45,224 nucleotides of DNA from Oscillospiraceae bacterium (GTDB taxonomy: Bacteria > Bacillota > Clostridia > Monoglobales > Monoglobaceae): NCBI GenBank assembly GCA_015068655.1, contig SVKC01000012.1, positions 1 to 45,224 on the forward strand. The letters run 5' to 3'. The stretch's first letter is position 1, and each line of letters starts with the position of its first letter. Below, in pieces: positions 4,531-45,041 of the stretch. The notes beneath the pieces are model-generated. The model was given only the letters and a program-made list of their open reading frames with translations. It was not told where the DNA came from and did not search any database. Both the position numbers and the translations under genes were made by a program.

Positions 4531-4580
4531 TCAACAAAATTCGACATATCCATATTGCGACACATAAGGTTTAGATGCAA
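4531..4580. repeat. Dispersed repeat B, copy 3 (extended)
   Basis: It matches 3831-3879 over about 50 bases and ends in the identical 22-base core (4559-4580). It immediately precedes the half palindromic array at 4592. Confidence 0.85.
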
Positions 4581-4591
4581 GCCTATTTTAT

Positions 4592-4710
4592 CGATATGCA
4601 AACTAAAGCTTGCTCGATATATTTACTTCATAAATTCGATATGTTTTTCGTTTCACATAAAAACACGATATGATAAAAATTTCGTTACCGTAAGGCAATT
4701 CATTGCTCGT
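4592..4710. repeat. Half palindromic array (four CGATAT cores, right half missing)
   Basis: Core CGATAT occurs at 4592-4597, 4615-4620, 4637-4642 and 4666-4671. The spacers can each form a small hairpin: GCAA/TTGC, ATTTA/TAAAT and GTTTTT/AAAAAC. After core four the sequence GATAAAAATTTC then TTACCGTAAGG resembles the centre of the complete arrays at 34459 and 44617. The inverse cores expected next are absent, and the 3' end of the fucosidase gene follows instead. One CAATTCAT, the core word of the array at 44860, occurs at 4696-4703 and may be chance. Confidence 0.65.
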
Positions 4711-4741
4711 GCAAAAGCAATTATTTAATCGTTGCTTTTGC
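4711..4741. terminator. Inverted repeat over fucosidase stop codon
   Basis: GCAAAAGCAA (4711-4720) and TTGCTTTTGC (4732-4741) form a perfect 10-bp stem. The loop contains the fucosidase stop codon. No T-run follows on the minus strand, so termination is possible but not classical. Confidence 0.45.
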
Positions 4742-5962
4742 AACCCTTACCGGATATGATGTTCCGTATGGATGTCCTGTAAGATTCACAGCAAGCATAT
4801 CTTGACCTTGAACAAATGGTAGCTCCTCGTTATTGTCCATCCATTTTATAGATGTAATTTCCTCCGACACACCACCAAAAGCATAAACTCCTCTGTATTT
4901 TCTACCTACTGTTACATTACCGTCTCCGCGAGTTGCAAGATCGTACACGAAAAAGTAAAGATTCTCGCCGTCAACGCTCTTCAGTGCAAAGTTTTTACCT
5001 ATGCCGTTAACCCCACATGGTCTTCCATTATAGATTGCTTCGCCGAACAGTTCCATCCAACGTCCTAAAAGTCCCAAAAGTTCTTTTTGATAATTATTTA
5101 TTTTACCCTGTGCCTCAGGTCCGATATTTAAAAGATAATTTGCGCCCACCTTACGGCAGTCGCAGAGACTCTTGATAAGCTCAGTCGGTGATTTATAGCA
5201 TAAATCGTCATATCCTATTCCCCAGTGTTCGTTAAGCGTGTGGCACATTTCTGCAGAAACATACTTTGACATTCCTTCACGATTCATCGGCGTTGGTATA
5301 CCCTGCTCAAATGTAACGGAATCAATCTCGGGATTACCTATTTTGCCTCTGTCACTAAGTCCTGTGTTATTTATTATCATAGCTTCAGGCTGATACTTTC
5401 TGATTGTTGCATAAAGCTCGTCAACCTTCCAGTCCGAATCAGGCTTTGACCAATTGCCGTCAAACCATAATCCACCTATTTTGCCGTAGTTCTTACAAAG
5501 TATTTCAACACTCTTTCTCAAATACTCAAGGTATTCGTCAAATTTCTCGTTAAAGTCCTTGTTGTACCAGTCAAGTGTTGTATGGTAGAACATAGGCATC
5601 AGACCATATTTATTACAAGCATCAACAAACTCACGGATAAGATCCCTTCCCGCCGGGGTATGCACTGCATCAAAATCACTAAGACCGCATGTGTCATAAA
5701 GCGAAAAGCCTTCGTGATGTCTTGTTGTAAATGTTATGTACTTAAATCCCGCTTCCTTTGCTGTGCGGACAATTTTCTCCGCATCAAAGTCCTCGGCAGT
5801 AAATGTGTCTGCAAGCTTCTTATATTCATCCATGTTGTAATGTTCAAGATTGAAAACCCATTCTCCTCTGCCAAGCTGTGAATAGAGTCCCCAATGAATA
5901 AACATTCCAAGTCCCATCTGCTCGAAGTCAAGAATGTACTGTTTTGCTACAGGTATACTCAT
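4721..5962 (-). CDS. Alpha-L-fucosidase (GH29)
   Basis: Glycoside hydrolase of family 29 that removes alpha-linked L-fucose from glycans by a retaining mechanism. The 413-residue protein has the family features: GMFIHWGLYS near residues 19-28, TTRHHEGF near 79-86, and GGLWFDGNW with the probable nucleophile Asp168. A short beta-sandwich-like tail follows. No signal peptide is seen, so it probably acts in the cytosol on imported fucosylated oligosaccharides. The start at 5962 is set by AAAGGAGG at 5969-5976; the ATG at 5995 would read through that site. FucU at 39839 fits the same fucose route. GH29 also contains enzymes with other specificities, so linkage preference is open. Confidence 0.9.
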   Translation of the reverse strand: MSIPVAKQYILDFEQMGLGMFIHWGLYSQLGRGEWVFNLEHYNMDEYKKLADTFTAEDFDAEKIVRTAKEAGFKYITFTTRHHEGFSLYDTCGLSDFDAVHTPAGRDLIREFVDACNKYGLMPMFYHTTLDWYNKDFNEKFDEYLEYLRKSVEILCKNYGKIGGLWFDGNWSKPDSDWKVDELYATIRKYQPEAMIINNTGLSDRGKIGNPEIDSVTFEQGIPTPMNREGMSKYVSAEMCHTLNEHWGIGYDDLCYKSPTELIKSLCDCRKVGANYLLNIGPEAQGKINNYQKELLGLLGRWMELFGEAIYNGRPCGVNGIGKNFALKSVDGENLYFFVYDLATRGDGNVTVGRKYRGVYAFGGVSEEITSIKWMDNNEELPFVQGQDMLAVNLTGHPYGTSYPVRVAKATIK

Positions 5963-33725: not shown

Positions 33726-33824
33726 AACAAAAACTCCGTTTTTCTGAAACTGTTTTAAAACAATTTCTAATATAGTAATAATTAGTGAGCATAACACAAA
33801 AAATCCTATTAAAAACTGATATTC

Positions 33825-34079
33825 TTATGTTACTCCAGGATGAAATACGACCCCATAATTTTTACGTGCTAAATACTCTAATACAATTCCAATTATTGAA
33901 CATACAAAAAGTATAAGATTATATGCTATCAAATTTCTCTTTGAAGTCGCAAAACTCGCATTCACTAATGACACTATAAATGCAAGTATAAAAACATATG
34001 TAAAGGGTAATATCCCTATATAAACAAAGAAACAAGGAATAATGAATGCTATATTAAACAACAGCAATTTTCTTTTCAT
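33825..34079 (-). CDS. Small hypothetical membrane protein
   Basis: I do not recognise this 84-residue protein. It is almost wholly hydrophobic, with three predicted membrane segments (about 4-20, 26-42 and 51-68) and a short tail, RKNYGVVFHPGVT. GAGGGG lies five bases before the ATG at 34079. It begins 22 bp after the four-helix-bundle gene, so it is probably its operon partner. Its AT-rich base use differs from the flanking rlmB. Confidence 0.6.
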   Translation of the reverse strand: MKRKLLLFNIAFIIPCFFVYIGILPFTYVFILAFIVSLVNASFATSKRNLIAYNLILFVCSIIGIVLEYLARKNYGVVFHPGVT

Positions 34080-34101: not shown

Positions 34102-34443
34102 TTAGTTTTTCTTTGCCGTAATAACAGATGAGATAAGCATTCTGCGAATTGTACCACATTTTTTATTCAAATTATCGTATGTTATCTTATCTATTGCATT
34201 AACCTTGAATAAAATTTCTAACCAGTATTCTGTTTCAAAACATTCTTTAAGCGCAATTTCTAGCTTGTTTATAAAATCCGCTTTGCTCTGTGCATATTTT
34301 GCTTCATGAGAATTGGCACCTATCGACGAGCAAGAACGCAAGAGTTGATTTGTAAATACTGCTCTCCCCTTTATACTATCACATACTGCAGTTGTTTCAA
34401 CGGTTAATTCAACCGCTAATTCCTTAATAGTTTTATCGTTCAT
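34102..34443 (-). CDS. Four-helix-bundle protein, S23/Avd-like
   Basis: A 113-residue helical protein of the four-helix-bundle family (S23 ribosomal intervening-sequence protein; relatives include the Avd accessory protein of diversity-generating retroelements). Hallmarks are NQLLRSCSSIGANSHEA (32-48), KADFINKLEIALKECFETEYWL (54-75) and the last helix GTIRRMLISSVITAKKN (97-113). Family members form oligomers with a basic surface and, for Avd, bind RNA and a reverse transcriptase. No 23S rRNA gene, reverse transcriptase or variable repeat is present here. The AGAGG site (34449-34453) directly borders the palindromic array, so the array forms the 5' leader. Its function is not known; a link with the arrays is my inference. 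Confidence 0.88.
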   Translation of the reverse strand: MNDKTIKELAVELTVETTAVCDSIKGRAVFTNQLLRSCSSIGANSHEAKYAQSKADFINKLEIALKECFETEYWLEILFKVNAIDKITYDNLNKKCGTIRRMLISSVITAKKN

Positions 34444-34458
34444 TATAACCTCTTTTTA

Positions 34459-34660
34459 GCGATATACTCACTTCGTTCGTGCGATATATTTGTTTAACAA
34501 ATGCGATATAACTCCATTTCATTCCGTTGCGATATGATATAAATTTCTTATCTCGTTCCGAAGGGACATATCGCATTACGAAGTAATATATCGCACCGAA
34601 GGTATATCGTAAATTCCGCAAGGAATTTATATCGCTGAGTTTAATCTTTGATTAAACTCA
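34459..34660. repeat. Palindromic 4+4 array, copy 1, upstream of four-helix-bundle gene
   Basis: Forward cores GCGATAT: 34459-34465, 34481-34487, 34503-34509, 34529-34535. Inverse cores ATATCGC: 34568-34574, 34588-34594, 34604-34610 (last base T) and 34629-34635. Hairpins lie between cores: ATTTGTT/AACAAAT (34488-34502), ATTAC-GAA-GTAAT (34575-34587), ACC-GAA-GGT (34595-34603) and AAATTCC-GCAA-GGAATTT (34611-34628); two left-hand spacers are weaker. The array ends with an 11-bp stem, TTT loop (34636-34660). The opposite core sets can also pair with each other across the centre. Confidence 0.92.
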
Positions 34661-34688
34661 TTCTATCATATATATACCCAAAAATCAA
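34660..34688 (-). promoter_or_regulatory. Possible promoter reading through array 1 into four-helix-bundle gene
   Basis: Minus strand TTGATT (34683-34688), 17-base spacer, TAGAAT (34660-34665). Transcription would start inside the terminal hairpin and run through the whole array. The sequence TATAATGA occupies the same place at arrays 2 and 3, so this may be a conserved element end rather than a promoter only. Confidence 0.45.
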
Positions 34689-44616: not shown

Positions 44617-44821
44617 GCGATATACTCACTTCGTTCGTGTGATATATTTTCACTCTGTTCAAATGCGATATAACCTCTCTCCGTTCGGTTGCGATATGAT
44701 ATAAATTCCTTTATCTCGTCCCGAAGGGACATATCGCATCCGTCAGGATATATCGCACCGCAAGGTATATCGCAAATTCCGTCAGGAATTTATATCGCTG
44801 ATTTCATCTTCGATGAAATCA
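44617..44821. repeat. Palindromic 4+4 array, copy 2 (GCGATAT core)
   Basis: Forward cores: 44617-44623, 44639-44645 (GTGATAT), 44665-44671, 44691-44697. Inverse cores: 44731-44737, 44750-44756, 44767-44773, 44792-44798. Hairpins include GTCCC-GAA-GGGAC at the centre, ATCC-GTCA-GGAT, ACC-GCAA-GGT and AAATTCC-GTCA-GGAATTT. The terminal stem GATTTCATC/GATGAAATC has a TTC loop (44800-44820). It aligns with array 1 end to end, with paired changes in several stems. No four-helix-bundle gene follows it on the left. Confidence 0.92.
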
Positions 44822-44859: not shown

Positions 44860-45041
44860 ATGAATTGACAACTGTCGTTGTCATGAATTGGCTAAAGCCA
44901 TGAATTGTTGCTATCGCAACATGAATTGAATTGCCTATATAATGTACGAAGTGCAATTCATGAGCCGCAAGGCTCAATTCATGAAATCACAGATTTCAAT
45001 TCACGCCGAAGGCAATTAATTGAGTTTGCTTTGCAAACTCA
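44860..45041. repeat. Palindromic 4+4 array, copy 3 (unrelated ATGAATTG core)
   Basis: Forward cores ATGAATTG: 44860-44867, 44883-44890, 44900-44907, 44921-44928. Inverse cores: CAATTCAT at 44954-44961 and 44975-44982, CAATTCAC at 44997-45004 and CAATTAAT at 45013-45020. Hairpins: ACAAC-TGTC-GTTGT, GGCT-AA-AGCC, GTTGC-TATC-GCAAC, GAGCC-GCAA-GGCTC, GAAATC-ACA-GATTTC and GCC-GAA-GGC. The terminal stem TGAGTTTGC/GCAAACTCA has a TTT loop (45021-45041). Same plan as arrays 1 and 2, but a different core. Confidence 0.92.

Follow-up and report, generated by a model that had tools for sequence, protein, structure and literature searches.

A four-helix-bundle gene of the S23 family and its array of inverted seven-nucleotide words probably form one mobile element

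A contig of an Oscillospiraceae bacterium placed in the Monoglobaceae (SVKC01000012.1 of assembly GCA_015068655.1, 45,224 nucleotides, hereafter the window) carries between rlmB and asp23 a small gene for a four-helix-bundle (4HB) protein, preceded almost immediately by an array of short words in both orientations. Is this array the leader of the gene, or do the array and the gene belong together, and what would such a unit be? The original prediction, made from the letters of the window alone, named both possibilities and proposed a unit in which structured nucleic acid is joined to a bundle protein that might bind it, process it or move it.

The product of the gene scores 81.1 bits (E 8.2e-23) with the PF05635 (23S_rRNA_IVP) profile, whose curated cut-off is 33.8, and its best relative of solved structure is PDB 2rld_A (E 1.3e-22), from a structure with five chains. 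The predicted S23-like identity thus holds. On the gene strand, the 11-bp hairpin is followed by four GCGATAT cores, one of them ACGATAT, the centre of the array, four ATATCGC cores, five bases (34454-34458), the AGAGG motif and the ATG (Table 1). Most spacers between the cores are self-complementary, as in ATTAC-TTC-GTAAT or ACC-TTC-GGT. The arrangement of four plus four cores, the hairpins between neighbouring cores, the far-end hairpin and the closeness of the array to the ribosome site, all described in the original prediction, were found as described, except that one inverse core reads ATATCGT. There are 17 exact copies of GCGATAT in the whole window compared with 3.6 expected, and none of 100 shuffles reached this number. 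The array also folds more strongly than its shuffled versions (z = -5.8). Chance can be excluded as the origin of this array, because the same layout also recurs with other letters in relatives.

The location given in the original prediction was correct, but its extent was too narrow, since it omitted an 84-residue membrane ORF downstream of the 4HB gene, two arrays close to the end of the window and a half-array remnant. The native rlmB leader resumes near position 33790, and therefore the membrane ORF lies inside the unit. No Pfam family over cut-off was found for this ORF.

Table 1. Features of the 4HB locus and of the other arrays in the window.
Feature	Position	Strand	Basis
Remnant: 3' half-array only, four ATATCG copies, with tail GCATCTAAACCTTATGTG	4566..4720	-	sequence
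Approximate 3' boundary of the unit; native rlmB leader homology resumes at ~33790	33790..33824	.	by-eye comparison with L121-L127, +/- ~10 nt
84-aa membrane ORF, probable cargo	33825..34079	-	by-eye likeness to cargo ORFs behind the 4HB gene in L026, L050 and L052
4HB gene, S23 / 23S rRNA IVP, PF05635, 113 aa	34102..34443	-	Pfam and PDB matches
AGAGG ribosome-binding site of the 4HB gene	34449..34453	-	sequence
3' half-array (M3): four ATATCGC on the gene strand (GCGATAT on the + strand at 34459, 34481, 34503 and 34529) and three hairpin spacers	34459..34535	-	sequence
Array centre: GTCCCTTCGG-type hairpin and a GAAATTTATATC-type stretch complementary to the 5' half at its outer start	34536..34567	-	sequence, fold
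5' half-array (M5): inverse word exact on the + strand at 34568, 34588 and 34629, fourth copy ATATCGT (ACGATAT on the gene strand) at 34605-34611, with hairpin spacers; counterpart of Rfam Gut-1 RNA	34563..34635	-	RF01706 match
11-bp leading hairpin TGAGTTTAATC-TTT-GATTAAACTCA, 5' end of the unit	34636..34660	-	sequence, fold
Native rlmB promoter TTGATT-N17-TAGAAT, unit directly behind	34660..34688	-	comparison with empty sites L121-L127
Second array of this kind, a solo copy lacking a 4HB gene; its leading hairpin follows TATAAT	44617..44820	-	sequence
Array built of a different word, TGAATTG/CAATTCA, and lacking a 4HB gene	44860..45040	-	sequence

The search for similar arrays upstream of other 4HB genes had been named beforehand as the refuting test of the original prediction. 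We collected 57 close relatives and, as an array-independent sample, all PF05635 matches from the family (38 genomes) and the class (243 genomes), with loci fetched for most. The score was core-agnostic: it counted 6-mers of whatever sequence that form runs with hairpin spacers, in both orientations. A score of at least 4 was found upstream of 76 of the 161 distinct 4HB genes, as opposed to 2 of 312 control stretches taken 800-1150 bp away (p ~1e-39) and none of 170 shuffles, a strong enrichment even though the score and the threshold were chosen after examples had been seen, which the control and shuffle counts offset in part. The class sample, which had not been picked by likeness to the window, had arrays at 20 of 84 loci. 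Arrays are concentrated in the clade nearest the window (67/100 vs 9/61). Some 4HB loci, and most of the distant clade, have no detectable array, and they count against the reading of array and gene as one mobile unit. Between 70 and 83% of the distinct inter-core spacers are self-complementary in four word families, compared with 4-5% after shuffling.

The letters of the core vary by group and shift in concert at all positions of the array, giving GCGATAT, TCGATAT, TGAAAT, GCTAAA, GTKATAT or ACGATAT. Mapped on a tree of 168 4HB proteins, which was built on few columns and whose bootstrap has not settled, the word changes 17 times, compared with a mean of 79.6 in shuffled assignments, none of 200 being as low. 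The TCGATAT loci make up one supported clade, and the GCGATAT loci nearly do, with two changes. Several words often occur in one genome, each with its matching 4HB clade (e.g. G111 and G154), and hence the coupling between word and protein is not an effect of the host. We regard it as shown, at the level of sequence comparison, that a word is inherited along with its protein clade. Nevertheless, the simple-repeat loci of Verrucomicrobia have their own word in nearly every copy. Strict recognition of the word by the protein can thus not be general, and the word can turn over and yet stay uniform within an element. Two Verrucomicrobia genomes (G271 and G272) harbour nine and seven 4HB copies, of both the hairpin-array and the simple-heptamer types.

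Because arrays are enriched at this gene family and the type of word tracks the protein clade, we consider the array and the 4HB gene to be one unit. The proposal of a structured nucleic acid joined to a bundle protein is therefore supported, and evidence for movement, presented below, adds to it.

We then have to ask whether the array is merely regulatory. In the GCGATAT clade, that of the window, the array is preceded by a good promoter and followed by the ribosome-binding site, no promoter was found between array and gene (0/23), and the array appears to be transcribed together with the gene. These features and the strong fold favour a cis-regulatory leader of the 4HB gene, i.e. an attenuator or an autoregulatory site, in which case the protein would bind the leader of its own mRNA. 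In contrast, 8 of 13 loci of the sister GTKATAT clade have a consensus promoter between the array and the ATG, with its -35 box overlapping the last core (control, 1/305). In addition, inverted half-arrays are found on both sides of the 4HB gene, and hence also downstream of it, in L041 and in two Verrucomicrobia loci (L063 and L078), and many arrays are solitary and precede unrelated genes. The promoters behind the array and the flanking half-arrays indicate that the array is not primarily a leader. The leader alternative of the original prediction thus stands for the window's own clade only; as a general account, a leader and nothing else is discarded, and we consider a cis-regulatory leader unlikely to explain the locus.

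Comparisons between genomes indicated that the unit moves. The rlmB-asp23 site is empty in seven relatives (G023-G026 and G028-G030), with a gap of ~210-250 bp as opposed to ~1130 bp in the window, and comparison with the empty sites (L121-L127) places the start of the window unit immediately after the -10 box of the native rlmB promoter. One tRNA-Glu locus of the family is empty in several genomes and occupied elsewhere by GCGATAT, TGAAAT, GTKATAT or simple heptamer units, so that at least four different word types are found there across genomes. L037 is inserted within a foreign array, after a hairpin (TGTTTTGTCTTCGACAAA) present on both sides of it; this duplicated hairpin of 18 bp is the only clean candidate for a target duplication, and that no more than one was found counts against a mobile unit. 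Typical units are also present on two contigs of a phage collection and in records labelled Akkermansia. Two general marks of a mobile element were thus found, namely sites that are empty in relatives and copies that are dispersed among unrelated flanks. Some insertions are common to close relatives (L040, L042, L043 and L069 at one site), as expected of ordinary drift, i.e. of immobile structured intergenic repeats inherited vertically with the neighbouring gene. However, drift is contradicted by the empty sites, and the dispersed copies with unrelated flanks, the differing elements at the tRNA-Glu locus and the insertion in a foreign array also speak against it; we give it almost no credence.

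A search of direct repeats for simple target duplications mostly returned repeats consisting of a hairpin and a 5' half-array rather than classical short duplications, and the long repeats found outside L037 are of this kind. They could also stem from local duplication or homologous recombination, which counts against a mobile unit. A second copy of the hairpin and 5' half-array lies behind the unit in L132, L200 and L214 (and in L033, L038, L040-L044, L054 and L069). These second copies form LTR-like direct repeats, of 42-117 bp in most cases.

The unit has preferred insertion sites. A tRNA gene precedes the unit in 37 of 155 loci. Within 420 bp upstream, 55 tRNAs are on the same strand and 2 on the opposite one, and a single tRNA was found downstream. 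Twelve loci, all on the same strand, are at the 3' end of genes that we take to be rlmD from their C-terminal motif. Many copies in the window's genus directly follow a TTGnnn-N17-TATAAT promoter, and Verrucomicrobia copies are placed between the genes of operons. At the tRNA, rlmD, promoter and operon sites, the 5' end of the unit coincides with a predicted transcript boundary or gene end. The hairpin ahead of the unit has the form of a terminator at tRNA genes. An identical hairpin sequence recurs behind different tRNAs of the window's genome (G000), and thus the leading hairpin may travel with the unit.

Two further observations concern these junctions. The terminator-like hairpin GCGTACTGAAAATTCAGTACGC is found behind different tRNA genes and is always followed by a 5' half-array (L296, L297, L298, L299 (G000), L300, L301), and the words that come after it differ between genomes. 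In L039 and L051, remnants of the rlmD 3' end are present downstream of the unit, and the upstream rlmD ends in a hairpin that encodes a new C-terminus.

The window's genome has arrays or parts of arrays at ~10 or more places (C1, C8, C10, C13, C23 twice, C39, C48, C52, C57, C67 and C69) but one 4HB gene, a count in which some copies at contig ends may represent a single split locus. The TGAATTG/CAATTCA array is directly upstream of the solo GCGATAT array, in tandem with it, and no matching 4HB gene was found for it in the assembly of this genome. The tail of the remnant listed in Table 1 recurs near other arrays. Another motif, GCATCTAAATCGTTC, was considered as a universal 3' tail and rejected, as a scan showed it to be largely confined to the window's close relatives. 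The cargo of the units is varied, in which it might resemble that of integron (attC) cassettes, and comprises GNAT, ASCH, nucleotidyltransferase, P-loop (AAA_18), DUF7225 and small membrane proteins, whose boundaries are in part provisional.

No recombinase, transposase or reverse transcriptase (RT) was found in the unit, and this counts against its being mobile. Other enzymes of the cell might move it. It could be a non-autonomous element mobilized by host Y1/HUH transposases, as in REP-RAYT systems, or by homologous recombination, with the 4HB protein as a passenger or stabilizer. Its hairpin-rich arrays, the long direct repeats around many units and the presence of Y1_Tnp in 9 of 12 array-bearing genomes are in keeping with this. 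However, no Y1_Tnp match was obtained in G016, G005 and G026, two of which are >90% complete, and the tight coupling between word and protein is unexpected for a passenger. The window's genome itself has only a weak partial match, with a stop. Y1/HUH mobilization is thus not universal, given the three genomes without a match; we retain it as a rival explanation, albeit a rather unlikely one.

The unit might also be a retroelement moved in trans by an RT, in the manner of the diversity-generating retroelement (DGR) protein Avd or of group II introns. The 4HB protein is presumably akin to Avd; insertion takes place beside hairpins and terminators, the order of hairpin and element resembles that of class C introns, and the ends of the element fall at RNA ends. 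Against this, RVT_1 had no match in 10 of the 12 array-bearing genomes searched, most of which are incomplete MAGs in which absence is not proof. The genomes without a match include G073, G104 and G154, which are 93-97% complete and have 6-8 4HB copies, two Verrucomicrobia with 7-9 copies, and the window's genome, whose assembly is ~82% complete. No ribozyme or RT family of Rfam matched the window locus. The absence of RVT_1 from 10 of 12 genomes argues against a retroelement and makes dependence on an RT improbable, and we hold this explanation to be very unlikely. In a different locus (L067), a match to the Rfam RT-5 RNA is present at 5416-5521, ~2 kb downstream of the 4HB unit.

The unit presumably shares the four-helix-bundle fold with DGR Avd proteins but has no RT, template or variable repeat, and no RT was detected in the window's genome assembly. 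Like class C group II introns, it starts directly 3' of a terminator-like hairpin and is co-oriented with transcription, but it has neither an RT/maturase ORF nor a ribozyme match. In common with REP/REPIN-RAYT and other solo palindromic repeats, it consists of dispersed non-coding palindromes with one coding relative in the genome; in contrast with REP/REPIN-RAYT and IS200/IS605, its coding partner is a 4HB protein and it contains no Y1 transposase.

One half of the array has been described before. Gut-1 was published as a candidate non-cis-regulatory noncoding RNA of unassigned function, found in 'Human gut only' (Weinberg et al. 2010, PMC2864571). Its Rfam model (RF01706) matches the 5' half-array of the window with 41.6 bits (E 1.9e-6), below the gathering threshold of 50, and it scores above that threshold at exactly the 5' half-array in 14 relatives with TGAAAT/TGAAGT-type words. 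Gut-1 RNA thus equals the 5' half-array of the unit. It was, however, described as free-standing and restricted to the human gut, and we did not find its link with a 4HB gene, the other, palindromic half or mobility described.

The other known relatives are the intervening sequences (IVSs) of 23S rRNA. In Nostoc, Planktothrix, Treponema, Bernardetia, Chitinophaga, Verrucomicrobia and other Clostridia, direct repeats that lack hairpins form runs of opposite orientation, and the 4HB gene is found close to these runs or enclosed by them. When the flanks were scanned for lags of 4 to 12, 30 of 190 loci had a period of exactly 7, no other lag was found in more than 1 locus, and 1 of 335 control flanks was positive. 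The heptamers that flank the Nostoc and Planktothrix genes presumably resemble the cyanobacterial heptamer repeats (STRR). On the Nostoc plasmid pNsp_b (L232), a 4HB gene with long heptamer runs adjoins genes for xisH/xisI-type excision factors. In one relative (L158), the 4HB gene lies within a 23S rRNA gene, on the rRNA sense strand (the Rfam LSU match spans the locus), between the inverted heptamers GGTTAGAAGTGAGAAGTTAGAGGTTAGAAG and TCTAACATCTGACTTCTAACTTCTAG and at a site that we take to be helix 45. L158 is, judging from its sequence, a genuine 23S rRNA IVS with inverted heptamers. Similarly, the Coxiella IVS has tandem GACAGAT heptamers ahead of its S23p ORF (PMC4990558). Mobility of IVSs has been proposed earlier, but as a guess only (Ralph and McClelland, cited in PMC4990558).

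The unit shares its protein family and complementary repeats with the S23-encoding IVSs of Leptospira, Coxiella, Brucella and Xanthomonas. In L041, L063, L078 and L158 such repeats are found on either side of the gene, whereas both half-arrays of the window are upstream of it. The window unit differs in being outside rRNA, in carrying cargo, in having hairpins between its 7-nt words and in following promoters or, elsewhere, tRNA genes. Because the window copy lies between rlmB and asp23 and L158 is the only relative in 23S rRNA, we file the unit as an IVS-like S23 element rather than an IVS proper. A literature search among open-licence papers for Gut-1, mobility of 4HB genes or IVSs, short tandem repeats and palindromes at tRNA genes returned no description of the unit. 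The statement that no named system of this kind is known was thus nearly right, except that Rfam already lists one half of the array as Gut-1 and that the protein and the layout belong with 23S rRNA IVSs. Its hairpin-array form, its targets and its cargo make the unit new; its protein family and its Gut-1 half were known before.

Altogether, we put the probability that the array and the 4HB gene form one mobile element of the S23/IVP kind at about 0.7. The sequences show a unit composed of a leading hairpin, a 5' half-array, a 3' half-array, the 4HB gene and optional cargo, the array being a 7-nt word in both orientations, with hairpins between the words in this lineage and a direct period of 7 in others. 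The 4HB protein is the only one that the units have in common. The unit is inserted in the direction of transcription at transcript boundaries: it follows a -10 box or a tRNA gene, adjoins the rlmD 3' end, separates the genes of an operon or interrupts a helix of 23S rRNA. Insertion at transcript ends and between genes would keep host genes intact. An element RNA with defined ends might be freed by the start of transcription, by processing of a tRNA 3' end or by RNase III. A 4HB oligomer would bind the array as folded nucleic acid, either RNA or single-stranded DNA, and would serve as the element's own mobility or maintenance factor, with joining possibly performed by host functions or by an unrecognized activity. 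Units that occur without a 4HB gene, as solo arrays, may be mobilized in trans.

More tentatively, and with somewhat less than even odds, these units may represent a phylum-spanning class of minimal mobile elements, made of an S23/4HB gene and inverted arrays of 7-nt words, with the 4HB protein as the only mobility factor encoded by the element and with transcript boundaries as targets. The rRNA IVSs, Gut-1 and the heptamers that flank 4HB genes would then be forms of it. What S23 proteins do and how 23S rRNA IVSs arose have been open questions for ~30 years. The locus and its relatives tie rRNA insertions, the orphan Rfam Gut-1 RNA and the 4HB-flanking heptamers of several phyla to one layout. 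They predict that the bundle protein would bind arrays of 7-nt words and hairpins, and that movement of the units would involve no known transposase or reverse transcriptase.
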